Assembly: GCA_019973155.2 (NCBI GenBank)
Contig: BPQB01000052.1
Location: 1-64,000, forward strand
Reading direction: 5' to 3'
Length of the DNA stretch: 64,000 nucleotides
DNA from: Phanerochaete sordida
Taxonomy: Eukaryota > Basidiomycota > Agaricomycetes > Polyporales > Phanerochaetaceae
The translations under genes and the position numbers were made by a program. Under the pieces are notes generated by a model. It saw only the letters and a program-made list of their open reading frames with translations. It did not search any database and had not been told where the DNA came from. Shown in pieces: positions 2,192 through 54,125 of the stretch. The stretch's first letter is position 1, and every line of letters starts with the position of its first letter.

Positions 2192-3940
2192 TCAATCGTC
2201 GAGCTCGTCCTCCTCGTCGCTCTGTGGCTCCGGGGCTTTGCCCTTCCCCTTCCCGCTGCCGCCGACGAAATCGTCCATGACCATGCCGACCGCAGCGTCC
2301 ATCGCCGCCTTGGACATTTTTGGCATTGCGCCTGGCCGCAGAAGCGGGTGCCGCGCGGGGTCCAGTTCTTCGACATCCTCCTCGTCTTCATCCGCGTCTT
2401 CCTCCTCATCCTCATCTTCGTCTTCGCCCTCGTCGCCCTCCGCGTCGTCGCCGCTGCCCTCCTCGCTCTCGCTGGTCGCGGACCCGCCGTCGCTGTCGTC
2501 CTCGTCGACAAAGTCCGAGTCGTCCTCGTCCTCGGAGTCCTCCGCAGGCGGCGCGACGGCCCGGCCCTTGCCCTTGAGGTCAACCTTGCCGTTGACGACG
2601 CCGTAGCCCTCGGCCTGCGGCGCGGGCGGCGGGCGCCCGAAGAGGTGCTTGTGCCGGCGCACCCACGTGCTGATGCCGTCCTGCTCGCGGCCGTCGACCA
2701 TGTTGAAGTCCGTCTCGACACACTCGATCTCCTCGTCGTCCGCCTCGCCCTCGCCATCGTCCCCGGCCTTCGCCTCGCCTACGCGCCGCCGCACGAACAC
2801 GGAGCACGTGCGCCCCGTCGCGCTCACGAGCCGCACGCCGTCGCTCCCGGTGCCCGCCTCGCCCGCCGCGTTCGCGGAGCCGACGAGGTCCGCGCACGCC
2901 CAGAACTCGGCCGGGCGCCCGTCCCAGAGGATGCCGTCGGCGAAGAACCAGAGCGTGCCCTCCTTCGCCGCGCGGTACGCCTGCACGCCCGCGAGCGGCG
3001 TGCCCTGCGCGTCGACGGCGGTTGCGCTGCGGAACACGGAGGCGTCTGGCTCGCGCAGCGGCACGGGGACGTGTGCGAGGAACGCGCGCAGGAAGGGCAG
3101 CACGGGCGTCCCCCGTGCGTGCTGTGCGGGAGCCGAGTCCGTCGCGGTGTGGTCGGTCGTGCTGTACGCGCCCGGCGCGGCGTCGACGCCGAACACGAGC
3201 TGCACGTCCTTCTCGGCTTTGTCCTTCTCTTTGTCCTTCGCGGCGGCCTTGCTGGACGGGGTTGGGGTGTCCGCGGACATGAGGAGCACGGTCCAGTGCG
3301 CGCGCGTCTTGCCGCGTGTGGGGAGGAGGAATGCGCGCCGCAGCGCGGAGAGCGGGATGGTGTGCTCGACGGCCTGTGTGTTGGGGTTCAGAAGGCGCAG
3401 GCTGCGCTCGTGTATGCGGATGTCGAGTTTCTTGCGCAGGGGCGCCGTGACGCTGAGTGCGTGCAGGGTGAACAGCGGCTTGTCCTCGCCCTCATCTCCA
3501 CGATCCTCCTCCGCATCTCCCGCCGACGCTCGCGCTCGCTTCGCCTCCTGTGTCCCCTCGTCGTCCCCTTCATCCTCCCTTGCTCGCTTGCCGTTCGTTT
3601 GCGTGCGCAATCTCTGGAGGGCTTGTGTGGCGGTGGACTGGCGCTCCAACCATTCGCGACGAAGCGCGTCGGGCGCGTCAGATGGGCAAGGTCCACCGAG
3701 CACAAACCTCAGCAGAGTGTCGGTCGTCGCGCGCTGCTCTGCGGAGAGATTTTGGAGGTCGTTGCGCAACGTGGCCGGGAGCGTGTCCAGGACAGCGTCG
3801 AGGTACTGGCGCTCCATCGGGGGGATCTGCACAGGCAATTGGTCAAAGTTAGGGCTAATTTTCAACAACGCTGGTATGCCCCGTTGCGTGTGAGATGTAG
3901 GCAGCGTCGAGGGGTCGAATGAGGGTCGTGGCCGTGGCAA
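2192..3940 (-). CDS. RTT106: Rtt106-like histone chaperone
   Basis: One uninterrupted frame of 582 codons. A short helical N-terminal part is followed by a charged KR-rich stretch. Then comes a tandem PH-like region (about residues 160-440) ending in FNMVDGREQDGISTWVRRH, the Rttp106-like domain pattern. The C-terminal ~130 residues are almost entirely Asp/Glu/Ser, the acidic tail usual in histone chaperones. Rtt106 binds H3-H4 during replication-coupled and heterochromatin assembly in the nucleus. The upstream 40 codons look non-conserved; the Met at about 3820 (MERQYLDAVLDTL) is the more likely start. Expected family length is 400-550 aa. Confidence 0.85.
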   Translation of the reverse strand: MPRPRPSFDPSTLPTSHTQRGIPALLKISPNFDQLPVQIPPMERQYLDAVLDTLPATLRNDLQNLSAEQRATTDTLLRFVLGGPCPSDAPDALRREWLERQSTATQALQRLRTQTNGKRAREDEGDDEGTQEAKRARASAGDAEEDRGDEGEDKPLFTLHALSVTAPLRKKLDIRIHERSLRLLNPNTQAVEHTIPLSALRRAFLLPTRGKTRAHWTVLLMSADTPTPSSKAAAKDKEKDKAEKDVQLVFGVDAAPGAYSTTDHTATDSAPAQHARGTPVLPFLRAFLAHVPVPLREPDASVFRSATAVDAQGTPLAGVQAYRAAKEGTLWFFADGILWDGRPAEFWACADLVGSANAAGEAGTGSDGVRLVSATGRTCSVFVRRRVGEAKAGDDGEGEADDEEIECVETDFNMVDGREQDGISTWVRRHKHLFGRPPPAPQAEGYGVVNGKVDLKGKGRAVAPPAEDSEDEDDSDFVDEDDSDGGSATSESEEGSGDDAEGDEGEDEDEDEEEDADEDEEDVEELDPARHPLLRPGAMPKMSKAAMDAAVGMVMDDFVGGSGKGKGKAPEPQSDEEDELDD

Positions 3941-4487
3941 ATGGGTCAGAGTCCGTGCGCGCTCAGCTCCTGCGAACGCAAGCGATACAAGGTTTAATTC
4001 CGCTGATGCGCCTGATGCGCCTTTTCGGTGATGCGCCCTTCCTCTTTCGTAAACCAGGCCGAGCCTGAGACCCCTTCGTTTTCATGCGGAAGCGGCGAGC
4101 AGCATCGTGAGTGCCTCCTCACCTTTTTCGACGCGTTATCCCATGAGCCTTTCTGTCCGTCTAACGCTCTCTGATAGCAGCTTACTCAAACTTTAGCTCG
4201 CCTCAAGAATCTCACAAGGTGTGTGACCGCCCTGCACACTGCCCGCACCCCGCGGCGCTTGCACTGTGGGCTGCCTGCAGATCCTGCTAATTTATCCCCT
4301 CAACATATTATGTGTGGAATTATGTAGGGCCCAGGGGAGTCCGTGAGCCTCACGGGGATGCCTATACGCAGTCTGAGCACTCCCCGCTTCCCTATCGAGG
4401 GATATTTGAAAAAAGACCCGAGTGCATAAAGGCGAGGTAGACGAAGAAGTGCTCTACTCCCGCAGAACTTTGCTGCACTCCTCAGCG
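3941..4487. other. Divergent intergenic region
   Basis: Lies between the divergently transcribed RTT106 and small secreted protein genes. It contains a CATAAAG element near 4424, about 60 bp before the secreted protein start. No other gene was seen. Confidence 0.4.
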
Positions 4488-9796: not shown

Positions 9797-11281
9797 ATGC
9801 GTAGAGTCCGCTCAGCCAGCAACCTCAATGCTATTAATCTGGCCGTCGCTGCGGCCTCCGTCTTCGACCAGGTTTCAACCCTAGTCTCGTTTCCGCCTCT
9901 CAGTGCTGCATCGAGCATATTGCTTGGGATTCTGAAGTGCATCGAGGTATGAACTTGGTGAAAGGACAATATCGATGTTAACCGATTGCTCCAAGACTCT
10001 CCGAGACAACAAGGACAGATGCGCTCGGTTAGCAAGCCGCTGCGCCCTGTTCCTGCGTCTCATTGCGAACAACATGCAAGATCGCATAGAGGCGCCAGAA
10101 TCTCTGTTGAGAAACATCAAAGATTTTGAAGGGTAGCTCAGTTTGTGGAAATAAATCATGAACACACGCTGAATCAGCGCAGGATGTTGACACAGCTCAA
10201 AAATGACATGGAAAGCCTTGCCGCCGGTCGTTTTCACCAACGATTTTTGCGAAACAAGGCCATAGAGGACGCACTTGAAGAATACAACACCATGCTGGAT
10301 GACGCCCTGCAGTCGTTCCATACTGTCAGTCTTATGGAAATCCAGCGCGCGTTAGGGGACCTTCGTGTCCAGGTCAACGGCATAGCTTCCAGCACGGCCG
10401 TCGAGAAGCGCCTCGACGATGTGACGATCCGACCTGCAGCAATCGTCAGTCATGTCGGAGCTTCTGTAGCCCGTCCGACGGAGAATAAGGAGCATCAGCG
10501 GGTGCGTCTCTGATACTTCGCTATACCACATGATCTAATGACGATCGCAGAGGATGTTTCTTGCAGTGCAGAAGCCTGTTTCACGGTCAAGCTCAGCCGA
10601 GCCTATGGGCAAGGCAGCACCTCGGAGAATACACAGTAACAACACGGTACTCCTCTTTTGTGCGCAGGACAGGCCCTACTATGAGTATGTATCATCGCGG
10701 CGCAGAATTTTCTGGACGCACTACTTATAGCTTAGATTTACCAACTCCGCCGTATATGCAATCGAGTATCAAGCGAAGATCTATCCTTCCTCTCAACATC
10801 GTGCGTAACATCACAGTTCTTGTGCGCAGCCAGCTAAAAATTTGATAGTCTACCAAGCTCGAAAATTCATGGATGTGGACTCTGAGCTCGCAGAGCAGAT
10901 CAGGACTATGCCTGATGCTAAGCAAGCTAGGGAACATGCAACTAGATTTCGTTCACTGCAGCGTCATGAATGGACTATCACAGAGAGAATCACCGTAATG
11001 GAAGAAGTCGTGTTGCTGAAGTTCATGCAACATCCGTTTTTGCGCCAACAACTCTTGGGAACAAATGGCCAAACTCTCGTGTTTGATTGTCCTGTGAGCG
11101 ACTTAAACTCCCTTATCTTCAAAAAGCTGCTGACATATTGACCCAGACCGACGCTTTTTGGGGATGTGGACCTGATGGGCAGGGACAAAATGAGCTAGGA
11201 AACATCCTGACGCGCGTCCGAGAACGATTCAGAGCAGACCGTGCGCTATTAGTAAGTTCAGATACAGCGATATCTTGGTGA
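9797..11281 (+). CDS. MLKL_NTD/HeLo-like domain fused to NADAR domain
   Basis: Start chosen for its GCCACCATGC context. Seven exons: 9797-9946, 9996-10132, 10183-10501, 10551-10684, 10736-10800, 10849-11093 and 11147-11281. They total 1185 nt (394 aa) with no stop. Residues about 1-165 match the agaricomycete MLKL_NTD pattern: AINLAVAAASVFDQVSTL, ILLGILKCIETLRDNKDRCARLASR, then a helix ending RFLRNKAIEDALEEYNTML. A serine-rich linker follows. Residues ~225-385 are NADAR: DRPYYEFTNS, YPSSQHLYQARKF, KFMQHPFLRQQLLGTNG, and FWGCGPDGQGQNELG. NADAR enzymes break N-glycosidic bonds to ribose (ADP-ribosyl or riboflavin-pathway substrates). The fusion implies coupling of a death or oligomerisation domain to nucleotide or ADP-ribose chemistry. 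Function is inferred. Confidence 0.75.
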
Positions 11282-11417
11282 TCTACAGTCACAAGGGGTG
11301 TAATATTGACCGTTGGTCCCCCACCTTTGGTGAGTTGTGGGCAACTTACAATACTCAGTATACTAAGCTTATGCATGGCACGCCTCCGTACACGCTCTGT
11401 AGCAGGAGCCTGTTCGC

Positions 11418-12187
11418 ATGCAGCACTCATCCCAGGCACCATCCAGTCCGCCCTCATGTAAGCAAACCGTTCGCCTTGTTGTCAAATCTCTCAGCGAAGC
11501 GACGCCAACGTATCAAGCAGGCGATGGCACTTTGCGTGCCCCTATTCTTTTTACAACGGACCCGGAATATTATGGAGAGTACGTGCTCGTTGTAAGTTAT
11601 ATCATACCGATCTGTGACTTATTGCAACGCCAGATTTCATCCTACATCGCCTCATGCGATAACATATAGAGGAAAGTTTTATTCAACTGCTGAGCATCGT
11701 GAGTATTGATCCCATGCCCATGATTAGGACCACAGTTTACCTGCCCTTTCCAGTTTATCATGCGTGGAAATTTTTCGACACTGAATCTCCCGAGCTGGCG
11801 GATCACATCCGCTATCAGCCCACAGCGGCAGCCGCAGCAAGTGTGGCAGTTTCTCTACAATCTAAGCAACGCGGAGATTGGTTGGGCATACGACTAGCCG
11901 TCATGGAGACGATTCTTGAGGCTAAATTCACTCAGCACTCTGCGCTGCGGGCTCTGTTACTCTCAACACAGGACAGACAGCTGATCTACAACTGGGCGGT
12001 GCGTAGCTGGTCCTCTACAGTCGGACAAGTTTTCTTACAGCCATCCTAACAGGGGCATCCTATATGGGGCGTAGGACCAGATGGAAAAGGGCAAAACGAG
12101 CTGGGTCAAACTCTGATGAGGCTGCGGCAGAGGTTCCGTGCGCCGGAAAAACACGCCATGAATGCGAGGACGGAGAAGCACTCTTAG
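11418..12187 (+). CDS. NADAR domain protein, single domain
   Basis: Four exons: 11418-11578, 11634-11698, 11754-11998 and 12053-12187. They total 606 nt (201 aa). Exons 2-4 have exactly the same lengths (65, 245, 135 nt) and phases as the last three exons of the upstream fusion gene, so the two are tandem paralogs. Motifs seen: PEYYGEFHPTSPHAITY, YSTAEHLYHAWKF, AKFTQHSALRALLLSTQDRQLI, and WGVGPDGKGQNELGQTLMRLR. No MLKL_NTD-like part precedes it; the start Met opens a low-complexity 40-residue leader. Likely cytosolic enzyme of the NADAR fold, substrate unknown. Confidence 0.75.
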
Positions 12188-23855: not shown

Positions 23856-24456
23856 CTACCTGATCTGTAGCTTAGCCCTGAGTCTCGTTAGACATTTCCC
23901 AAGCTCATTCCTGCCCTTCCTATCCGAACCGTAGCCCCAAAATGCATCGTTCTGTGGAATCAAGCAATTCTTAGCATTGCACAGATTGGACAACCCGTGA
24001 CTTACAGAGTTTGCATTGACGATATCGCGATCTTTCGTAGCAAGCAAAAGCGTACGTAGGTTCGGATGCTGAGTGAATTTCGCCTCGAGCACGGTCTCCA
24101 TGCAGTCGACGTTCACCTCAAGCCAGTCATTCCGTTGCTGGTTTCGGTGACGCTGGCCTTCGCGTAGAGCCGCCTGTGGCGTGGGCTGCAGTCGTATCTG
24201 CTCTGCCAGGGCAGATGCGTTGGTCAGGAATTTCAGTGCCTGGTATACTGCACAGTCTAGCGTCAGTCATCCTTGATATCCGCTCCTACGGTTCTGTGAC
24301 CCACGGTGCTCAGCGGTTGGGTAAATTCTCCCGTCGTGAAAGACTGAGTAAGACGAGAAATTCGTGAACCTTGCAGTTTGTGAGCGTAGGTTTGTCTTGA
24401 GTGGTAGGTAGGCTTACTCGTAGAAGGGCTTGTCCGGATCGTGAAATAGGATAGCT
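23856..24456 (-). CDS. NADAR domain, probable C-terminal half of a tandem-NADAR gene
   Basis: Minus-strand exons read EAILFHDPDKPFYE / FTNFSSYSVFHDGRIYPTAEH / YQALKFLTNASALAEQIR...AKFTQHPNLRTLLLATKDRDIV / NDAFWGYGSDRKGRNELGK, stop TAG 23856-23858. Intron positions equal those of the other NADAR genes here. No start codon lies in frame upstream. The frame runs instead into the 3' end of the next NADAR unit (24457-25197), separated by a 14-base poly-C (minus strand). Either an unseen start or intron exists, or the two units are one gene whose frame is broken at the homopolymer. Confidence 0.6.
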
Positions 24457-25197
24457 TCACCTGAGGCCCTCCGCTGGGGGGGGGGGGGGTGGACCTTCGG
24501 CTGCAAGCCCATTCCGAAGCCTCTGTCTTAGGCGCATGAGTATCTTCCCGAGCTCATTCCTACCAAGCCCATCCTTCCCTATACCCCAGAAAGCACTCAG
24601 CTGCGGTGTTTGTGAGTAGTACAGCTCTAGATATATGTTCCTTACTCACCGGGCTGGTGTCGATTAGCTCTCTGTCGCCCGTACCCAGGAGAAGGGATCG
24701 AAGGATAGAATGTTGCGTGAATTTTGCCTCAAGGACCTCTTCCATGACAGAGATCTTGATCGATGACCAATCTGCGCGTTGGAATTTCTGCAATCGTATC
24801 GACTCGTCGATCGCCGTGCGTGGGCTGCGCGCATTCCTGATCCTTTCTGCGAGGTTGGGAGCACCGTCGAGGAACTTACGAGCATTGTACACTGTCGTAG
24901 CATCAGTCGGAGATCTTTTTGATCTTAGCGTATGCTCCTCACAATGCTCTGCGGTGGGATAAATCTGTCCTCGGAACGTTATCGGGTACGATGCAGCATT
25001 GGTGAACCTATGGATCGCTCGTAAGACTGACTCGCAGCTATAAACTGAACCACGCACTCGAAGTAGGGCTGATCGCTCCCATAAAACAGGAGAGGCGTTC
25101 CTGTTTGCTGTCTTCGCGCTGGAGATCAGTTTTAGCGTATGCGGCGATCGTGGCTCCTCAATTCGACTGTGCAGCACTTACATAAATCCCTCTGCAT
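24457..25197 (-). CDS. NADAR domain protein, N-terminal unit
   Basis: Start ATG 25197-25195; exon 1 is only 16 nt. A phase-1 intron (GTAAGT...CTCCAG) joins it to a basic leader and TPLLFYGSDQPYFE. Then come FTNAASYPITFRGQIYPTAEH, VYNARKFLDGAPNLAERIR, LEAKFTQHSILRSLLLGTGD, and FWGIGKDGLGRNELGKILMRLR. With 14 C in the tract at 24489-24476 the frame stops at TGA 24459-24457. The complete NADAR domain precedes the tract, so the protein is likely functional alone. Confidence 0.65.
24476..24489. repeat. 14-base G/C homopolymer at the junction of two NADAR units
   Basis: Fourteen consecutive G on the plus strand. Its length modulo 3 sets whether the NADAR unit upstream on the minus strand stops or reads into the second NADAR domain. 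Such tracts are prone to slippage and to sequencing error. Confidence 0.8.
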
Positions 25198-30668: not shown

Positions 30669-32350
30669 CTAGTCGCACAGGCTGACCTGTCCCGCACGGA
30701 TCTGGCGGCACCGAGCCGCTTTCGGCAGCCCCACCGTCGAATGGCGGGATTTTTGTGAGTCCAGACTCTGTTCTGGCCGGCCGCCACGCGATCTGAGTCG
30801 CCGAACGCAGCCACCGTTGCCGCACGGCTTGCAAGACGCGCGGGAGGACACCACCGCGGCAGCCCAGCTCTCGCGCTCGACGCGAGCTCGGCCCAGTGCA
30901 AGTCCTTCGCCGCGGAACGAAGGCCCGGCCGCGGACGACGCTAGCGGCACGGTCGCGTCAGCACAACGAGGACGACGCAGACGCGGAGACTCACCAAGTG
31001 GCCGGCCGACTCCAAGTCTCGCCTGAACGACACCAAACGTGCCGCGTGCAGCGCGTCGAACGGCCCGCGCGACCGCGGGTGTGAAGATCTCGCAGGCGCG
31101 AACTCTGCCGCGAGCCAGAGCCGCACACCAGCGCCCTGTCCAGCCAGTCAGCGCGAGGCACGGAGTCAGAAAGGCGGGCCGACGACTCACCGCGAGCGTC
31201 GCGCCCCGCGCCGTACACATTGGCAAGCACGCGGCCTACGCGTGCCGCAGGACATGGCGGCGCACGTCCTGCGATATCAGCGCAATGTCGCTGCCCGCTC
31301 GCCATCTGCGGGCGGCGTACCGGCAGGCACGCGGCCGTCGCGTGCCGTGGGACGCGCCTGCTGGCGTCCTGCGATCCCAGAGCCTGCTCGTCGCCATTTC
31401 CCATCTACGAGACACCGAGCGGCAAGCGCGCGGCCGACGCGCGCCGTAGGGCGCGCTGGCTTGCGCCCTGCGACGTTAGATACATCTCACCGCCTCGCAG
31501 CACGTCTGCACGGCGAACCAGCAGGCACGCGTCCCTCGCGTGCCGTGGGACGCGCCTGCTGGCGTCCCACGATGTCAGAACCTGCCCGCCGCGGTCTACG
31601 ACTTGCGAGCGGGCGAACGGCAGGCGCGGGGCCTTCGCGCGCCGTGGGGCGTGCTCATCTGTGCCCTGCGATATCAGAGACCCGCCGAGCCGCTGCTCCG
31701 CGCGCGAGGCGTAACGAGCGGCGGCGGGCGTGCGCGGCGGGCGAGCACGAGGGCGCCGCCAGGGCACGCGAGGCTGGGAGAAGGCCGCGTCAGCTCACAA
31801 GCAACAAGACGGGACGCGAGCAAGCGCACCGCGCTGCACTTCGCCGGCTGGTGACGACGAAGGGCGGGATATGACGACTCACCGAAGGTCCACGAGCCGC
31901 GGCGGCGCGGTCGCGAAGGCGGACGAGAGCGGGCAGCCTGCGAGCCCTCGCGCTGAGGCGCGAGGGAGGCGAGGCTACGGGTCGACCGAGCGGGCGCGGC
32001 GAGGAACATGCCGACTGCAGAGACGATCAGCAAGGGTCCGTGCCGACTGCAGAGACGATCAGCAAGGGTCCGCGACGCCGCGCGCAGACTCACCGGAGAG
32101 GACGAGAGCAGCGACGACGCCGCCTCGGCGCGAGAGCGCGCGGCCGATGCTTCGGCCAGCAGCGTCAACACGGCCATGTCAGGTCTGTGTACAATGACCA
32201 TGATGTGCGCAGTGAGCACAAGGTTCATGGGGACGCCGCGCACTGGCAGTCGACATCTGCAAACAATATCTGTAACTTCCCCGCCCACGCAGGCAAGATG
32301 GACAACCCCGATGCTGCGCTCTACAAAGAATGCGACGCTAAACGCCATGC
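30669..32350 (-). CDS. Candidate multi-exon gene of unknown function, GC-rich
   Basis: Support comes from splice signals rather than homology. On the minus strand there are introns at 31882-31774 (GTGAGT, GAGCTGACG branch, CTCCCAG), 31190-31136 (GTGAGT, CGCTGACTGG, GGACAG) and 30994-30941 (GTGAGT, GTGCTGACGC, CGCTAG). The exon between the last two is 141 nt, a whole number of codons, and one minus frame runs open from 31226 to the stop at 30669. The middle is a 99-bp tandem array. Ends, frame and product are uncertain; it may be decaying. Confidence 0.35.
31222..31690. repeat. 99-100 bp tandem array, five units
   Basis: Units start at 31222, 31322, 31421, 31520 and 31619, each beginning near GGCA(A/G)GC(A/G)CGCG and ending TGCGATATCAG-like. 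On the minus strand each unit looks like an ATATCGCAG acceptor, a ~48-nt exon-like block ending CTGCCG, and a ~50-nt intron-like spacer. Some units have lost the splice dinucleotides. Confidence 0.7.
32008..32071. repeat. 32-bp direct duplication
   Basis: TGCCGACTGCAGAGACGATC and the following 12 bases occur twice back to back. On the minus strand this duplicates the 3' end of an intron, creating two identical CTGCAG acceptors 32 nt apart. Confidence 0.85.
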
Positions 32351-39249: not shown

Positions 39250-40888
39250 TGGTAATATCCCACAACAAACTCAATTGTCTTTTCGGGAAGCGGGTGCTCA
39301 CCTCTCTCATTAAATCCTTCTCGTCCACGTCGTCCGTCTCGCTGCTGGACTCGTGCTCTGTCTCCGCACCCTTCGACTTGGATTTCGACTTCGACGCCTT
39401 CTGCATCTCTGGATCTGGCACCTCAGAACGTTGTCCTCCATTCTCGGCTCGCGGAGTTGGCTCCTCATGGTCCTGGGTCTCGGAATCCGGCTCAGCATTC
39501 CACAAGGCCTCCTCGCCCTCTTCAACCCTTCTATATAGCTCCTCTCGACGTTCTGCTTCGGCCTCTATCACTCCGCGCGCCAGTCCTACAGCCTCGTCCG
39601 GAGAGTCTCCTTTCACAGAGCCGCTGCCAGCGAACGCCGCCTGCACTGTCCCGTCGTCTGCGTTCTAAGATATTCACATGTAAGTATCACATCTTCGTCT
39701 GAATGGACAGCCTGTACTCACTTCGCAGGCGTCGGCATGTGTCGCAGCGGCCGCAGACTGCGCGTGTGACTTGCCGACCGAAACACATCTCTCGAAGTAG
39801 TAGGCCCGCATCCAGCGCGACCGCTCCGAGGACCACCGAGGGGCGACACCGGGGCAAAGGGCGACGTGTATCGCATTGACCGCGGTGACGCCACATGACG
39901 ATTTGTCGCGTTGGAGGGCGACCGTCAGCCCGGTGAGGTTGATCCGCCAGGAGATGTTAGGCAGATGGGCCTCCAGCCACGCTTTGATGTGCTGCAGTAT
40001 GCTCGGTACGTGATCCGCCGTGAACGTGGGCAGAGAGTCGCCAATGCTGATCGTGCAGGTGTCGACATCCACACCGACCGCGATCCAGTGCGCTTCGTCG
40101 ACGTTCACGGGGAAGAAGAGCCGCCGAATGGCGTTCGACGAGAGCTTGCGACCCCACGACTGAGCGGTGTTACTGTTCAGAGTACCGTTCAGGATGGTCT
40201 GTCCAAGGTACGTGCTGGCAATTCCTTCGGCTGGACCATGCGTGCCTAATTGCTGGTAGTCGTAGCGGAGGACGTCCAGCATGCAGTTCAACGTGTCGCA
40301 GCTGAGCCACCTGCGGCTCAGAAGCTCACCAAACGTCGATTCAGCGGCAGCCGCTCCGCGCTGAAGGCCCGGGAGACCTGCGTTGTAAGGACACGCAGCC
40401 AACGCCGCACGGAACGTGGCTGTAGCAGATGGCGACCAAGCTTCGCGCTCAGCAGAGAGCTCAAGCCAATCCAGCCGAGTGTTCCAAGACTCTGCCTTCT
40501 TCAAGACCTCGTACCCGGAGCAGTACGCGCGAGCAACCCAGAGGGGCCACCGGATTCCATGGCGGTAAGGGTGCACAACGGAGTTACATCCTTGCTCGAC
40601 GGCTGTAGTGATCCCGCCCGGAAGGTGTACGCAGGCGCGAGGCTCCGGGAGTGTCAGTTGTGTGACATAGCCCGGGATTTCATTCGGTACTTGACTTGAG
40701 AACCAAAGGGAAGTGTTGAATGCTTTCTGCGAGTCTTTCTGCTGTCTGATGACCGGAGGCGTTTTCAGATGGAACGGCTTCGGTTTCGCCAGAGAAAGAA
40801 ACTCGGCGACGGAAAGGTCCGCAGGGGGCAATAGCGCAGCTCTGATTTTCTTCGGTAGCACCGACGGGTCGTCTTCTGGATGTGTCAT
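39242..40888 (-). CDS. Ulp1-type cysteine protease (C48) of a transposon
   Basis: Catalytic layout of Ulp1/SENP deSUMOylases is visible: EAHWIAVGV (His), ISIGDSL (Asp), VALQRDKSSCGVTAVNAI (oxyanion Gln and nucleophile Cys), in the correct order and spacing. The N-terminal half has no known domain. Start chosen at the Met at 40888 (MTHPEDD); an upstream Met exists at 40975. A phase-0 intron (GTGAGT...CTTAG, about 39720-39668) joins the protease to an acidic Glu/Ser/Lys-rich tail ending at 39242. Ulp1 proteases commonly ride in large fungal DNA transposons. Confidence 0.75.
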
Positions 40889-40975
40889 TGGCAGCTGGCG
40901 ATGCGAGCATGAACGAGGGAAGGGGGCCGTAAAATTATTGCTCGGTCTCTGGCTACTTACTCTGTCACTACGCAT

Positions 40976-41611
40976 ACAACTTGAGCTTAAGTCAGGTACT
41001 TAGTTCGCTAATCGATATTCGAAGCGATAAGAAATTTGTCTGAAGCAAATATTTATCCAGGCAAAGTGTTCGCTCCGTGCGGCGCGGGCGGGCAGCGGGC
41101 GTCGGGCAGCGGGCATTGAACATGCGCGCTCCGACCTCTCTTTCGGGCACCGATGGCACGCAACATGGGGCGACTTCCGGGCGGAGTTTCGGGCACCAGG
41201 CATGCGAGAGCGGCCCTCCGGGGGTCTGAGTTTCGGGCACAAAGGGATCGGACCTTTGGCGGCATAAGGCGGGGTCCTGTATGGACCCCAGACTTCGCCA
41301 CCGTGGACCCCGGACGATACCGCTAAATAGACGCCTAACCACGACAGGCGGCCTGAGTCGTCCCTCCAGGTGACTTCGTCCATCCTTCATACCACCTCGA
41401 AGAATTTCCACAAATTCTCTTGAAACTCACACTGTCATTCCTTCAGATTTTGAAGATACGTGGTGTATGTGTTTTGCTGTTCGTATCGTTGTATGGAATT
41501 AAATAAAACGAAAATTGTACAATAGGTCGTCGCTAAAGCAAGGGGCGATTCTCCTGGCCAGCGTCGTGTCCTCGCTGATGAAGGTGACCTAAGCATGAAG
41601 AAGACTTAAGC
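40976..41611. other. Intergenic, contains the dispersed TTTCGGGCA repeat
   Basis: The block at about 41130-41290 is the second, inverted copy of the repeat at 25503-25640. The remainder shows no gene. Confidence 0.45.
41130..41290. repeat. Dispersed repeat with TTTCGGGCA motifs, second copy
   Basis: Three TTTCGGGCAC motifs, then 41248-41279, which is the reverse complement of 25503-25534. It may mark the outer edge of the transposon block. Confidence 0.65.
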
Positions 41612-43272
41612 TTAAAGATTCCCTATATCTAAGTCGTCTCCGACTGTCGTCCGGTCGTCTTCATCTTCGTCTCGTATTGTGGTCCTCAGCCTCGTGAGAG
41701 CCTTCCCGAGTTCGTTGCGACCCTGGTCATTCGTTCCGCAGCCCCAGAATGTGTCCACCTATGGTATGTCACTGAGACTATGTGTAAAAAGGTCGTACTG
41801 AGAAACTCACAGGATTCGCGTTGATCAGTTCTCGTTCGCCGGTTGACATGAGCAGCTGGCGCAGGTTCTCGTACTGGGCAAATTTCGTCTTGAGAACGAT
41901 ATCCATACATTGAATGTTCACGTCGAACCAATCGTTGCGCTGGTGGAGCCGAAGAAGTGCTGCCTGCTCCCAGGCCGCTCTCGACGAGGTCTGTGTTCGA
42001 ATGTGCTCGGCCAGGTGCGGGGCGTTGCTCAGGAACTTGTGCGCTTGGAACACTGACATCGTACCAAAATGAGTATCTATAAAATCTGCTAGAACAAGAC
42101 GCGGTGCTCACAGTGCTCAGCAGTGGGATATACCTTCCCTTGAAATGACACTGTGTGCGGCGAATTGTTCATGAACCTGTCTCCGCGGTCAGCGACGCTG
42201 ACTCGAACGAACTGCAGACTTACTCGCTATAGGGATCGTCCCTGTCGAAGAAAAAAATGGGCAAATTCGATGATATGTCAACTCGTCTCGCTGTAAACAA
42301 CAAATGTGCCATAAATCCTGTAAGTTGCGTCGTTGGGATTGTGACCATAGCCTCGACTGACCTGCGGGAGGGTTAACGTTCCCAGTATTACTTGGGCCGC
42401 GTGTCACGGGCTTGGGTACCGGCAACGGTCTTCCTGCTTTGCCTCCGCCTGGAGCCGGGACCTGCAGAATATCAAACGCTATAGGTCGCTCGCCAAGACA
42501 TCTGCATGTCGGGTACGCACTGCGGAAGGGCTGGTCGGAGATGTTGGGTCCGGCATGGACCCTGGCATCGAACCTGGCATCGACACCAGCTGTGGAATTT
42601 TTTGTGCCTGTACTTGTGACGAGAAAGAAGCCACTGCAGGCTGCGTGGTCGCGTTATTCCTCAGCCGAGTCCTCACTCGCATCAGCGCCTTCCCGAGCTC
42701 ATTTCGTCCCTGATGGTCCCCTCCACAACCCCAGAACCCGTCATCCTACGGGATGCACAGCGTCAGTGCGCCTCAGTGCGCATCATCGCTGTCCGCACTC
42801 ACAGGACTGTTTTGGACGATATCTACGTCTCCTGTGCTTAGTAGCATGTCGCGCAAGACTGCATGCTTTGTAAACTTCGTCTCTAGTACTTGCTCCATGA
42901 GGCCAAGATTGACATTGAACCAGTCACCGCGCTGATACTGTCGCAGCTTTGTTGCCTCCTCGCGAGCCGCTCGAGCACTCGGTGCATTTCTGATGCGTTC
43001 CGCGAGGTCCGGACGCGCATCGAGAAACTTGTGAGCCTGGAAGACTGCACTCTGGTGAGTCTCACAGCCCGCGGGACCTGTAACGCTACTCACGATGCTC
43101 AGACGTAGGGTAGGACTTCCCCTCGAACTCGACGGGGTACGGCGAGAAGTTCGTGAATCTGTCGCGCGACGATGAGCCCGCGCGTCTATCCGATGATAGC
43201 GCGATGCGCGCACCCGAAGTACGGCTGCCCCTTCTCGTAGAACAGGACCGGCTCGCCCTGTGGACTTTGCAT
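41612..43272 (-). CDS. Tandem (two-domain) NADAR protein
   Basis: Start ATG 43272-43270, 80 bp below a TATATAA at 43351-43357. First unit: GEPVLFYEKGQPYFG, FTNFSPYPVEFEGKSYPTSEH, FQAHKFLDARPDLAERIR, ETKFTKHAVLRDMLLSTGD and DDGFWGCGGDHQGRNELGK. A Met-Pro-Gly repeat linker follows. A phase-0 intron (GTGCGT...TTCTGCAG) then leads in frame through VPAPGGGKAGRP, and a second intron to LPIFFFDRDDPYSE, FMNNSPHTVSFQGKVYPTAEH, AKFAQYENLRQLLMSTGE-like and VDTFWGCGTNDQGRNELGK, with an acidic tail ending TAA 41614-41612. Both domains keep the paired motifs, so both may be active. All junctions stay in frame. Confidence 0.75.
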
Positions 43273-43680: not shown

Positions 43681-44350
43681 TCAGCGGACAGTGCTTCGGG
43701 AACGTCCACGGCCTACGGGGGCCACCTGTTCCTGTCTCCGCGCATCTTCGACTGCGCGCAGCTGCGCTCTGAGTCTCATGAGGGCCTTCCCCAGCTCGTT
43801 TTTGCCCTTCATGTCCTTGCCATATCCCCAGAAGGGATCCACCTGCCGCGCGATGTCTCAGCGTTGACCCCAGATATGCATGACGAAGGAGCACTTACAG
43901 GGCTCGCCTCGACGAGACCGCGGTCGCCGGTCGACAGGAGCAATTGGTGCAGGCTCGAGTGCTGCGTGAACTTCGCCTCCAGGGCTAGATCCATACACTC
44001 GCGATTGACTCTGAACCAGTCGCTCCGCTGGTGCTCACGGAGACGCTGCGCCTCTGCAAGGGCCAACTTGGATGAAGGCTGTATTCGTATATGCTCCGCT
44101 ATATCGGGCGCGGTTTGCATGAATTTTTGAGCTTGAAACACTGTGTTTTGTGAGCAGACGTGCAGGCTGGATGAAAGAGATCGCGCTTACAATGCTCAGA
44201 GGTAGGATACAATTTTCCGTCATACCAGACTTCATGAGGCGAGAAGTTCGTGAATCTTGTATTATCATTAGCAATATCTTCACCATGATGAGTCTACACT
44301 CACTCGTAGTATGGCTGATCCCTGTCGTAGAAGTAGATTGGCTCCTCCAT
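43681..44350 (-). CDS. NADAR domain protein
   Basis: Four exons. Start ATG 44350 gives a minimal protein that begins directly with the domain: EEPIYFYDRDQPYYE / FTNFSPHEVWYDGKLYPTSEH / LFQAQKFMQTAPDIAEHIR...EAKFTQHSSLHQLLLSTGD / VDPFWGYGKDMKGKNELGK, then an Arg/Glu-rich tail to TGA 43683-43681. Introns use GTGAGT/ATACAAG, GTAAGC/AACACAG and GTAAGT/CGGCAG at the positions shared by the family. A TTATATAG lies ~35 bp upstream. This is the shortest and cleanest family member here. Confidence 0.8.
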
Positions 44351-44582
44351 GACCTCAGGAGTCGAAGAGAAGCGGCCCTTGACTATATAATCGGACGATC
44401 GTTAACCGGCATCGCAACGATGTAGATCTTGGGTCGCTCGCTCACGTTTTTGGTAGGCAGAAGGTGCCCTTGCGCCACGCCTTCGCTTTCCATGTTGTGG
44501 CTCCACGCTAGCCGCTCTTCTCTGTGGGACAATGTCAGGATGTGGCTGCAAGGGTACGGTTGGCAGCGGCTGCGAGGAATCG

Positions 44583-45354
44583 TCAGCGTACGCTGCAGCC
44601 AAAGATGAGTGTACCGACTTTCTCTTCTCCACGGGATTGGCTTCTGCGTCGGGTCTGGTTCGAGAAGACGTGCGCGTTCACGCCAGGAATGACAGCATTA
44701 TTCTCCGCCTCGTATCGTAGATGGTTTCTGAGACGCATGAGAGCCTTGCCTAGCTCGTTTTGCCCCCTACCATTCCTCCCGGTGCCCCAGAAGTCGTCGA
44801 GCTGTCGGGACTTTGGTCATCACCAGCACCATCCGCGGCACTGCTTCGCTTACAGGGCTGTTCTCAATAAGCAACCTGTCTCCTGTTCCGAGCAGCATGT
44901 CACGCAGCGCTGCATGCTGAGTGAACTTGGCATGGAGAGCCCGGTCCATCATGTTGAGGTTGACGTGGAACCAGTCGTTGCGTTGTTTTCGTCGATTGTT
45001 GGTCGCTTCTGTCAGGGCCTGACGAGCACTTGGAGCGTTCCTGACCCGCTCTGCGAGGTCTGGACGGTGGCCAATGAATTTGAGTGCTTGAAATACTGAG
45101 AACGATCAGAATCGCTAGCAGCACCCCGCACAGGTAACGCCACGCACGGTGTTCTGATGTTGGATACAGCCTATCCTCGTAGTACACTGGAAATGCCGCA
45201 AAGTTGGTGAACCTGCAGTCCAACCTCTGGTCATGCACATCCTTCCAGCACCCGACTGGAGAACATACTCATAGTATGGCCTTCCTCTCTCGTAGAAGAG
45301 GATCGGGGTCTTCTTGTTCGTTTTCCAAAACTTCCAGCGACTGGCCGAACTCAT
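44583..45354 (-). CDS. NADAR domain protein
   Basis: Start ATG 45354 opens a basic leader (SRWKFWKTNKK) before TPILFYERGRPYYE. Then come FTNFAAFPVYYEDRLYPTSEH, LFQALKFIGHRPDLAERVR, HAKFTQHAALRDMLLGTGDRLL, and LDDFWGTGRNGRGQNELGKALMRLR. The C-terminal ~45 residues are Arg/Ser/Gln-rich, ending TGA 44585-44583. Intron positions match the other members. The FTQHAALRDMLLGTGD segment is closest to the first unit of the tandem gene next door, supporting local duplication. Confidence 0.75.
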
Positions 45355-45671
45355 GTCGCGCCTCTCGTGACTAGCGTCCCTCGCCGGAGCGACGTCGAAC
45401 CCCCCTTGTGCGGGTCGTGCCATGCTTCTTCCTCGCTCTCCCCCTCGATGTTGTAATTGCATGTCTGTCATATGTGCTAGAGACTTCTCAGTATGAGCGA
45501 ATGGATGTATGACGCAGCAAGCGTTGGGGACCACAGGAGTTATAGGGTACGCGTTGAGGAGCACGGGCGATACAAGGCACCACTCGGCTTCTGGCTCCAT
45601 GCTTGTCCGCGACGATGCCACAGCACGCTATCTTTATGGACAGATGTCTCCCACGGTTTCACAAAACGCAT

Positions 45672-50512: not shown

Positions 50513-50945
50513 TCTGGACGGGACTCGTGTTTTTGCTGTGCAAAACGAGTTTGACGGTGGAAGGAGGAGAGTTTGGAAATCCCACTTGTGACGCAGCCCG
50601 CTAATGAGCCGCCGGCCGGCCGGTAACAAATGGCCGGCCGTCAGTGATATCCTTGCCGGAAGACCTAAGGAGTTACTTACTTTCGGCCGGCCAATGTTTA
50701 TTTAACTTCTCCGTACGCCGGGTTGTCATGCTAAATCACCTCCAAACCATCTACCCTTCCTCCCCCCATGTTTCTGCCGACGTCTCACGCATATATCGCT
50801 TGAGGATCTGCACCGGCTGCTGCTTGGAACCGCCTGTCAACATTTCTCCCCTTTTTCCTCGATCTTCTGTGTCCATATTTATTCCAACGAGCCTGCTTCG
50901 CCCTCGCTTTCGGACGGCCTTTCCTAGATCCTCAGTGCGTTCAAC

Positions 50946-53433
50946 ATGCAGTCCAAACGCCCACCGAACCTCTCGCTGCAGATAGGCGAGAGACCGCCGG
51001 CGAGAACTGTGATAGAACTTCCTACTCCTGTGGAAGAACCGGCTGAGGATCTACACGAGGAGGCATCAAGGTCTTCGTCACCCGCGTCCAGTTCCTCAGA
51101 CTCACAGGAAGCCTTCCTCGAGGAGAACGACGCCATTTCTGATGACTTGTCAAAGGATCTCGCTCTCCTAGAACAGCTACGTCGGAGCGTCCACAAGAAC
51201 CTTCGCTTGCGACCCATTCGCTCAGCTTCAGGGTCCATACGAAGCCAGCACACCCCCGAGCTCGCCACGTCCTCATCGCAGTCTTCAGATTCGCCTTCCG
51301 AGTCTGCGGCAGATGCTGCCCGCCAACGCACACCGAGTCCTGACTCTGCGTTTAGCCCGGCGAGTGCGTACTTCACCCCGCTCACCGAGTTCGGAGCGAC
51401 GCCCATCAGTGCTCTGCACCATTCACGCCACACCTCCCTCGACGTCCAGGTTCTGCAAGCGCAAATGCACGTGCAGCAGCCAGCGAAGCCTCCCGCATCG
51501 GCCCCGGGGCAGGGCGTCAGCCCTGCGCTTCTCCTCGCGCGGCTTTCCACGCCCACTCGCCCGCTGCTCATCGACACTCGACCTGTCGCAGCATTCTCGC
51601 GGTTACACCTGCCACAGAGTGTCAACATCGCCATTCCATCCCTTATCCTTCGCCGGTCACGCAAGCCAGCAAATGCGTTTCACTCCCTCGAGGCCCTGCG
51701 TCAGTACATCACCACCGATGAGAGCAAGCGTGTCTGGGACGACCTGATGGCCGGACACGACTGGGACGGGGACGTGATAGTCTACGACGAAATCATGCTC
51801 CCGAAAGATCGGAACAACCACCAGGCGACAGCCTGGGCGATCATGGAGCTCATCGCACCGCTCCTGGCCCATGGCAGTGTTGATTTCCTCGAGGGCGGCT
51901 TTGCTGCTGCGCGAAAGCACCCGTACCTGTCGGAGCATATGGTGGCGGGCACAGAAGCCTCTGATCCGCCAGACGTTGCACCGGAGCTGAGTTCCGCCCC
52001 AGTGCTGTCCTCGAGCATCGCCAGCACCTCTAAAAAGCAAGCTCCCGTCTCGGGCCTCGCGCAGCTAGACACGCTCATCGCTGCTCGCTCGAAGAAGATG
52101 CCCGAAATCGAGCAGCCCGTCCCGTCCCCGCAACCTCTCATGCCCACCGCTATCAACTCTTGGAACATCGAAGACTTCATGAGCCCGTCTCCCGCTCCCT
52201 CTGCCACCGTATTTTCTCGCCCGCAACCGCCTCGCCGGCCGAGCATACCCACCCTCCGTCGACTCGACACAGAACGAGCGTCACCACTACCCAAGTTGCA
52301 GGTTCCAGCTGGGCAGTCCAAACCACACACTCTCGCGGCTCCTAGCGGCGCCAACAGGAAGGCTCGCTCGCGTTCGCCTTCACATCTCAACCTTGTACAT
52401 TCCAACCACTCGCCGCCACCATCGGCGCTGCTTCTGTCGCCGCCGAACCCCTCACGCGACCTGGTCCCACCCCACTCGCCGGCGTACTCGCTCACGCCGC
52501 GGTCAGCGCACACACCGCTCCCGCGCTCGCCCGCTACCGCGCGTCCGGAGATGGATCAGCCGCCTACGACGGAAGAGCCGTTCCCGGAGTTCTCCGTGTC
52601 GACGATCCTGCCCAACTTTCTCTTCCTCGGTCCCGAGCTCACGCTGGAGGAGCACGTCGAGATGCTGCTCGCGAACGGCGTCAAGCGCATCATCAACATC
52701 GCGGCGGAGTGCGACGACGACCACGGCCTGCGCCTGCGCGACCGCTTCGAGCGCTACGTGCACATCCCGATGCGCGACACGGTCGAGGAGGACAACATCA
52801 CGCGCGGCGTGCGGGAGGTGTGCCAGTTCCTCGGTGAGTGCGCAGGCAAGCTGTCTCGTGCGCTGGCTAACTCGCTGTCCAGACGACGCGCGTCTGCACT
52901 CGGCGCCGACCTACGTCCACTGCAAGGCGGGCAAGTCGCGGTCCGTCACGGCCGTCATGGCGTACCTCATCCACGCGAACCACTGGACGCTCTCGCGCGC
53001 ATACACCTTCGTGCTCGAGCGGCGCAAGGGCATCTCGCCGAACATCGGCTTCGTCTCGGAGCTGATGACGTTCGAGGAGCAGGAGCTCGGCGGGAAGAGC
53101 GTCGGCGTCGTCAAGATGGCGCCGGCCGAGCCCGAGCCCGACGCGGGCGCAGGCGGGCCGACGATGACGGGGAACTACGGTGTCGCGCTCGGCGGGCGGC
53201 GCCCGCAGCACCTGCGCGAGAGCCTGCCGCCCGCGTTCTCCGCGCAGCACTCGCTGAACCTCGTCCCGACGCTGCACGACGCGGCGCAGCTCGGCGACTC
53301 GCAGCAGGAGCTCGAGATCAAGGACGCCGAGGGCCGGTACCGCCATGCGCGGCGCGCGCCCGTCGACGAGACGACGCTGCAGCCGATGCGCCGCGTGAGC
53401 AAGGCGGGGCTCGAGAGCGCCGTGTATTTATGA
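50946..53433 (+). CDS. Rhodanese plus dual-specificity phosphatase (MAP kinase phosphatase type)
   Basis: Two exons (50946-52833, 52883-53433; intron GTGAGT...TGTCCAG), 812 aa. A Ser-rich N-terminus contains a rhodanese/CH2-like domain at about 180-330 (LLIDTRPVAAFSRLHLPQSV, GDVIVYDEI). It is followed by a long Pro/Ser linker and a C-terminal DSP domain: ILPNFLFLGPEL, GVKRIINIAAEC, and YVHCKAGKSRSVTAVMAYL with the HCX5R catalytic loop (HCKAGKSR). This layout is that of MKP-type phosphatases (compare yeast Msg5/Sdp1), dephosphorylating Thr/Tyr in MAP kinase activation loops. The C-terminal 130 residues are extra and low-complexity. Divergently arranged with DEF1. Confidence 0.85.
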
Positions 53434-54125
53434 GCCGGCACGCGCCGCGGCGGCGTGGTGCGCCGGTGTTTCTGCTTCGGGTTCCCCGTGTCTCTCGTTT
53501 ACCTCTGTGTCTGCTTTGCATTGCCACATATACCCTCGCATGTCGTTGTTGTTATTTGCTGCATACGTCACTCCTACTCATCTGCCTGTGTGTGCGCTCT
53601 CCGCATCTCAATCAATGGACTCTCACGGATTGCGTTCGACCACGCTCGGAGCACTCGCATCGGTCCCGCTGACCGTCGTCTTTCCCCGTCTAGGCTGGAG
53701 CCCACGTCTGCTCGCTTGGCCACCGCCGCGCGCACCGGGTCTGGATTGAAGGGCACTATTTGCCTGGTATCGTCTGGGATGACCAGGTACAAATACGGCT
53801 CCGCTGACGGAACGACAGACGGGATGGAGTGTTTGTCTTTGTTAGGAACCCAAGCCTCCGGTTGCTAATTCCAGCATCAGGCAGAAGACGCTTTGACCTT
53901 GCTTTGACCCGAACGCGCGATGTTGAAGATGAGACATGTTTCATGCTATCGTACGCGCGAACCCCACGGCGAACATACATGGTGAGCAATACGATGTGCG
54001 TATCATTGTTCAGTTGGCAGTTGTTGACCATGCTGACGTATGTCGACGGTACATAGGATGAATCGGAAAAGGAGAGCCAGCTGCTAAGGGTCCGCGCAAG
54101 CCCTGCTGAGGCAGCCGCCGTTGAC
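53434..54125. other. Intergenic, no gene seen
   Basis: 3' UTR of the phosphatase, then unremarkable sequence. A minus-strand frame (53756-54190) overlaps the small secreted gene's 3' side and may contain an alternative last exon. Confidence 0.4.

Follow-up and report, generated by a model that had tools for sequence, protein, structure and literature searches.

A predicted fusion of an MLKL-type helical domain to NADAR domains with replaced catalytic residues in a gene cluster of Phanerochaete sordida

The window, the whole 64,000-nucleotide stretch of DNA analyzed here, covers positions 1–64,000 of contig C52 of Phanerochaete sordida and has a GC content of 58.2%. On its forward strand lies a gene, with its start codon within GCCACCATGC, that the initial annotation described as seven exons encoding 394 amino acids. 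The rebuilt model ran from 9797 to a stop at 11281 with six GT-AG introns of 48–53 bp and gave exactly 394 aa; the stop, however, is intronic. The deposited protein P0001 ('NADAR family protein [Phanerochaete sordida]', 569 aa) was recovered letter for letter from the window DNA, in 12 exons, by spliced alignment with P0001 as template. P0001 and the 394-aa model are identical to residue 385 and diverge at a gtaagt donor at 11252, past which P0001 bypasses the earlier stop and gains a second NADAR domain. The consensus donor and the exact alignment of P0001 indicate that the last residues and the stop of the 394-aa model are part of intron 7. The layout of the focal protein is MLKL_N-NADAR-NADAR (Table 1). 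Deposited paralogues P0002 and P0005 also carry two NADAR domains each and, in a quick tree, the second focal domain (NADAR2) fell together with the NADAR2 domain of P0002 and the two domains of cluster gene G3 (SH-aLRT 92, fork left open), indicating that the two-NADAR layout is common to relatives.

Table 1. Features of the focal gene and of neighboring NADAR genes in the window
Feature	Position	Strand	Basis or remarks
Whole coding region, MLKL_N-NADAR-NADAR	9797..12187	+	12 exons, 569 aa, stop TAG 12185-12187
Exon 1: start codon, N-terminal helix (low confidence), bundle helix 1	9797..9946	+	exon rebuild, spliced alignment, model
Exon 2	9996..10132	+	exon rebuild, spliced alignment
Exon 3: final bundle helices and start of low-confidence linker	10183..10501	+	exon rebuild, spliced alignment, model
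MLKL_N Pfam match, residues 45-145, exons 1-3	9929..10330	+	bundle about residues 32-157 (AlphaFold2)
NADAR domain 1, residues 232-384, exons 4-7	10638..11248	+	Pfam, YbiA fold, residue tally
Exons 4-7	10551-10684, 10736-10800, 10849-11093, 11147-11251	+	
NADAR1 Q267 codon (E43-equivalent)	10794-10796	+	
Intron 7, gtaagt donor, holds stop of 394-aa model (to 11281)	11252..11405	+	
NADAR domain 2, residues 404-560, exons 9-12	11523..12157	+	58.2 bits at 11762-12139
Exons 9-12	11521-11578, 11634-11698, 11754-11998, 12053-12184	+	
G1, two NADAR domains, no adjoining MLKL-like exon found	23859..25119	-	
G2b (deposited P0009), two NADAR domains	41672..43248	-	
G2a (deposited P0007), two NADAR domains	43756..45453	-	

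The proposal that a helical domain of the cell-death executor type opens the protein was borne out. Pfam MLKL_N matched residues 45–145 of the 394-aa protein with 31.7 bits (cut-off 27) and P0001 with 29.9 bits, and a profile of the focal N-domain and its relatives (A5) run against the PDB retrieved as its first six matches MLKL chains (6zvo, 6d74, 6zle, 6ux8, 2msv and 4btf; E 8.6e-5 to 2.8e-4). Seven of the eight members of A5 matched MLKL_N at E<=1. The MLKL_N scores of the fused relatives P0005 (20.4 bits), P0058 (17.2), P0077 (16.4) and P0017 (12.6) lay below the cut-off of 27. AlphaFold2 modeled a four-helix bundle (helices 35–52, 56–79, 85–110 and 116–154; block pLDDT about 50–82) preceded by a low-confidence helix at residues 2–29 (block pLDDT <50) that may correspond to the extra N-terminal helix hG; in P0058 a helix was predicted at residues 6–26 (block pLDDT 47–68). 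Foldseek and VIA-align matched the bundle to generic four-helix bundles, and MLKL was not among the fold matches listed; since four-helix bundles match many unrelated proteins, the MLKL assignment rests on sequence profiles. The initial annotation had named HeLo-like domains alongside MLKL; for HeLo itself, Pfam listed no match to the 394-aa protein (E<=10, with HMMER's filters applied). Pfam likewise listed no NACHT or NB-ARC domain, at E<=10 for the 394-aa protein and E<=0.01 for P0001. A genome-wide search with Pfam MLKL_N, a domain split here over three exons, gave no match even for the controls and is uninformative. On these profile matches, the focal N-domain belongs with the MLKL_N-type domains of basidiomycetes.

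The first NADAR domain (NADAR1) was matched by Pfam at residues 238–379 with 104.2 bits and adopts the YbiA fold in the model. Its residues are numbered below as in the Phytophthora NADAR, mapped by alignment, N25 being a label introduced here. According to the available part of PMC11543638, E43 and E125 of the P. nicotianae NADAR coordinate the distal ribose; in the E. coli C7 NADAR, E88Q (the E43 position) is inactivating and E88A has a minor effect in vitro, cell rescue failing with either, and K95 (equivalent to K50) is essential, K95R being active in vitro without achieving rescue. In focal NADAR1, E43 is replaced by Gln267 and E125 by Phe347, and the pocket residues N25, K50 (Lys274), R79, W89, D130 and W133 are kept. 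Of the 'complete NADAR enzyme' initially proposed, the complete fold stands, but it is doubtful whether NADAR1 should be called an enzyme: judged by its residues, it looks like a dead one. NADAR2 keeps E43 and K50 but has Tyr at E125, His at D130, Ser at R79 and Pro in place of the conserved Asn N25.

The focal gene is part of a cluster. Exon-level NADAR matches in the 40.8 Mb genome numbered 59, of which 53 are on C52, and the region between 9.8 and 147 kb of this contig was modeled as 20 NADAR genes that together hold 32 domains (12 two-domain and 8 one-domain genes), a striking local expansion of the family. MLKL-like exons were found 5' of seven genes, namely the focal gene, G3, P0005, G7, G9 (deposited as P0058), G13 and G15a, or of six if G13, whose fusion is uncertain, is dropped; the models of G3, G7, G13 and G15a are spliced alignments made here. 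At positions E43/K50 the first NADAR domain reads Q/K in the focal gene, E/G in G3, V/M in P0005, A/K in G7, V/K in G9, E/K in G13 and E/R in G15a, so that fused G3 and G15a keep E43, and all 21 domains of the other 13 genes read E/K. One of these 13 is G17/P0077 (about C52:145567-147003), which together with G13 forms the exceptions to residue loss; its MLKL-like part lies 3' of NADAR, and P0077 is either a permuted NADAR-MLKL fusion or two merged genes. Outside the cluster, unfused P0079 on contig C14 has G at K50. Fused and unfused copies, and copies with and without E43, are thus adjacent, providing built-in controls.

As predicted from sequence, MLKL_N and NADAR occupy one protein, a fusion that is not ascribed to chance because the arrangement recurs in paralogues. 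Confusion of neighboring genes in the gene models is a genuine concern with G13 and G17/P0077, whose two parts could each have a start or stop codon of their own. As an account of the focal gene it is very improbable: short introns leave its frame continuous and the gene has a deposited model, G7 and G9 as modeled here join both parts across introns of 53 and 59 bp, respectively, and the deposited entries of P0058 and P0005 are fusions. A stand-alone MLKL-like gene was found at C149:21335-21893, with no NADAR match on that contig; its domain is 61% identical to that of G7, and a gene of this type is a plausible donor. Downstream of it, in the same frame, comes a Ser/Pro-rich and acidic stretch.

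Relatives beyond the genome were collected with one NADAR domain of G8, which retrieved 166 proteins at E<=1e-10, the best 120 of the 166 being examined; two earlier protein searches had given 4 matches each. We take many of the source-named fungi among the G8 matches to be Agaricomycetes, and the others are unnamed metagenome proteins. The only match to our own MLKL profile from outside P. sordida among the 123 returned proteins was the Mycena crocata protein P0017 (27 bits, iE 2.2e-8), and Pfam MLKL_N matched 4 of 122 scanned proteins at E<=0.01. P0017 has the layout MLKL-like-NADAR-NADAR, with D and Q at E43, and brings in a second species with the fusion; as 46 of the 166 matches lie outside the comparison, the fusion may be commoner. 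Position E43 in 146 NADAR domains of the 123 proteins was E in 136, a gap in 4, V in 2, Q in 2, T in 1 and D in 1, and MLKL-fused proteins account for five of the six substitutions (one each in P0001, P0005 and P0058, and both domains of P0017). In a protein of Fomitopsis schrenkii (P0030), Pfam placed NADAR together with RING-finger domains, another effector-type partner for a fungal NADAR.

The association of residue loss with fusion was assessed within the cluster. E43 or K50 was altered in 8 of 11 domains of the seven fused genes versus 0 of 21 in the other 13 (p 1.6e-5), E43 alone in 4/11 versus 0/21 (p 0.009) and, with K-to-R not counted, either residue in 5/11 versus 0/21 (p 0.002), all three p values treating related copies as independent and K50 having joined the count only after the E43 pattern was known. 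By gene, the proportions were 6/7 versus 0/13 (6/6 versus 0/14 with G13 taken as unfused, 6/8 versus 0/12 with G17 taken as fused too), or 5/7 versus 0/13 when K-to-R was not counted; for E43 alone they were 4/7, 4/6 or 4/8, depending on the call for G13 and G17, versus none of the unfused. By contrast, E125 was replaced in 7/11 fused-gene and 12/21 unfused cluster domains, which shows no such difference; E125 was left out of the loss count, and its absence from focal NADAR1 carries little weight by itself.

A wider comparison started from 178 domain rows (32 from the cluster models and 146 from the 123 returned proteins), reduced to a tree set of 155 by removal of 14 repeats from 9 deposited P. 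sordida proteins and of 9 rows shorter than 110 residues; rows gapped at the counted position were excluded. In 154 rows, E43 was lost in 5 of 8 first NADAR domains of fusions versus 2 of 146 other domains, these two being the second NADAR of P0017 and a domain of the metagenome protein P0011, and E43 or K50 was changed in 10 of 13 fused-gene domains versus 3 of 140 others. Among 41 near-invariant positions (>=93% conserved in 142 unfused domains), the E43-specific p was 6.5e-4, or 0.027 after 41-fold correction, the value that applies since E43 was first spotted by eye, before the mutagenesis was read. The test over all 13 domains (p 0.0028, corrected 0.12) and a tree-based test with 5 independent pairs on well supported branches were not significant. 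The number of near-invariant positions changed was 1 in G7 (E43), 3 in G9, 5 in focal NADAR1 and 15 in NADAR1 of P0005, with E43 among them in each.

These counts bear on a rather unlikely reading in which the helical domain only oligomerizes or anchors the protein, NADAR2 does the chemistry and no cell death ensues. It draws on the E43 and K50 kept in NADAR2, on the E125 kept in G7 and G9, and on basidiomycete MLKL-like domains being, in the available parts of the literature, predicted rather than demonstrated killers. Yet the E125, D130, R79 and N25 positions of NADAR2 are all changed, G7 and G9 are single-NADAR fusions devoid of E43, and, inside the cluster, changes of catalytic residues accompany the MLKL part.

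Evolutionary rates were compared by the Nei-Gojobori method. For the MLKL part of the focal gene versus P0005 (145 codons), dN was 0.316 and dS 4.29, which is saturated; for NADAR1 of the focal gene versus P0002, dN was 0.306 and dS beyond estimate. Such dN values with saturated dS argue for a maintained protein. In the quick tree, focal NADAR1 was sister to NADAR1 of P0002 (SH-aLRT 86) with a branch of 0.76 versus 0.036, a length that shows fast change after duplication. That branch, the 15 of 41 near-invariant positions lost in NADAR1 of P0005 and a TGA that interrupts the MLKL frame in the model of G15a (C52:137616-139101), possibly a decaying copy, are what would be expected of chance fusions losing their function in a fast-duplicating cluster. 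As an explanation of the focal gene this is improbable, since its 12 exons are open and spliceable, the protein is conserved while synonymous sites are saturated, and G7, G9 and focal NADAR1 have few changes, E43 being in each set. The long branch relative to the P0002 sister might also mark a diverging decoy, in an unlikely scenario where a dead NADAR, as integrated decoy or scaffold, mimics active paralogues targeted by a parasite or virus, and interference rather than an ADP-ribose ligand releases the bundle. Copies with and without E43 do share one cluster, and viral NADARs have been proposed as counter-defense (PMC9503650, available part). However, E43 aside, several residues of the pocket are retained, and in G7 all other near-invariant positions, which would be needless for a decoy, and no effector is known.

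We tentatively favor, as possible rather than probable, a reading in which the gene product is a killer pseudoenzyme that acts inside the cell as sensor and executor, a dead ADP-ribose pocket controlling a membrane-active bundle. A sensor-executor was the initial suggestion; its domain identities were right and the idea fits, although NADAR1 is doubtful as an enzyme, the protein is longer than described and the suggested antiviral or allorecognition role is hypothetical. The predicted MLKL-like four-helix bundle is joined through a low-confidence linker to the two NADAR domains. With its pocket residues kept and E43 and E125 replaced, NADAR1 should bind a ligand of the ADP-ribose type without cleaving it. 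An example would be a guanine of DNA or RNA that carries ADP-ribose, and the likely candidate is ADP-ribosyl-guanine or a related soluble compound. Binding would free the bundle to oligomerize and damage membranes, so that a hyphal compartment would be killed or sealed off, and unfused paralogues with E43 and K50 would erase the same mark and keep the switch off. By analogy, the logic of MLKL applied to a dead NADAR would explain together the fusion, the higher frequency of E43 or K50 loss among fused copies and the other pocket residues that several of these keep. Against this preferred reading, G7 (A at E43) and G9 (V) keep E125; since E88A is mild in vitro in the available part of PMC11543638, both may be partly active, and activity of K95R in vitro (same source) indicates that G15a, with R at K50, may be active as well. 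Also speaking against it are the residues kept in G13 (of uncertain fusion), G3, G15a, G17/P0077 and focal NADAR2, the K50 loss in unfused P0079, the sub-threshold MLKL_N scores of four fused relatives and the tree-based pairs test.

A source of the ADP-ribose mark was also considered. No ADP-ribosylating partner was found near the focal gene, and a six-frame search of the P. sordida genome, ignoring introns, gave no DarT match. PARP gave two neighboring matches on C12, taken as one gene, and a genome search for Enterotoxin_a, which missed every control too, is uninformative. The writer of the mark could be foreign. It is a doubtful extension of the preferred reading that a killer pseudo-NADAR, parallel to the killer pseudokinase MLKL, senses nucleic-acid ADP-ribosylation in a eukaryote and is wired to death, the fungus dying only when guanine ADP-ribosylation outruns its erasure by about a dozen paralogues that keep E43 and K50. 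If the sensor-death reading were true, loss of catalysis in this one design would be a repeated event, seen in Mycena as well as in P. sordida.

The predicted architecture was compared with known systems. In MLKL, a membrane-breaking bundle is coupled to a pseudokinase that holds it (PMC12881547, available part). Mammalian MLKL and the focal protein share, beyond profile similarity, an N-terminal four-helix bundle and a C-terminal catalytically dead enzyme domain, both predicted in the focal case; however, the latter is a pseudokinase in MLKL and a NADAR here, and the focal protein has no known RIPK3-like activator. The basidiomycete MLKL-like (BaMLKL) domains that occur in fungal NLRs and as stand-alone proteins, as described in the available part of PMC9815663, resemble the focal one in being MLKL_N-type bundles of Agaricomycetes, and their predicted extra N-terminal helix may have a counterpart in the low-confidence helix of the focal model, whereas in the focal protein no NACHT or NB-ARC is listed by Pfam and the sensor part is NADAR. 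HET-S and HELLP, with HeLo and HeLo-like domains, belong to the same proposed class of membrane-active helical executors, but no Pfam HeLo match was listed here. Compared with YbiA-type NADAR hydrolases (E. coli YbiA, 2b3w; Phytophthora nicotianae NADAR, 8bau), NADAR1 has the E43 and E125 equivalents replaced. DarT-NADAR toxin-antitoxin pairs also link NADAR to the control of growth or death, whereas here NADAR is fused to the putative killer and the six-frame genome search gave no DarT.

Among the literature matches listed (titles and abstract starts, with few subscription papers covered), none reported a NADAR joined to a death domain, and the word NADAR is absent from the main texts of a fungal NLR survey (PMC9815663) and a fungal cell-death review (PMC12881547). 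What eukaryotic NADARs do physiologically is described as unclear in the available part of PMC11125620. If borne by a bundle of the MLKL type, a dead NADAR would offer a concrete and testable candidate receptor for ADP-ribosylated nucleic acid, and would suggest that the coupling of a dead enzyme to a four-helix killer arose more than once.

Other features lie in and around the cluster. Three long open frames at C52:117737-128410, inside it, have a retroelement-like look, to judge from the motif YTDASDEALG. In the window, a tandem repeat array with a period of 99/198 bases occupies 31222-31671, and an open frame at 39680-40999 (-), beside cluster genes, matches an Ulp1-type protease (PF02902, 28.3 bits, cut-off 20.7). 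An Rtt106-like histone chaperone domain is found in an open frame before the cluster, at 2198-4081 (-), and a rhodanese domain in one within it, at 50928-53666 (+).
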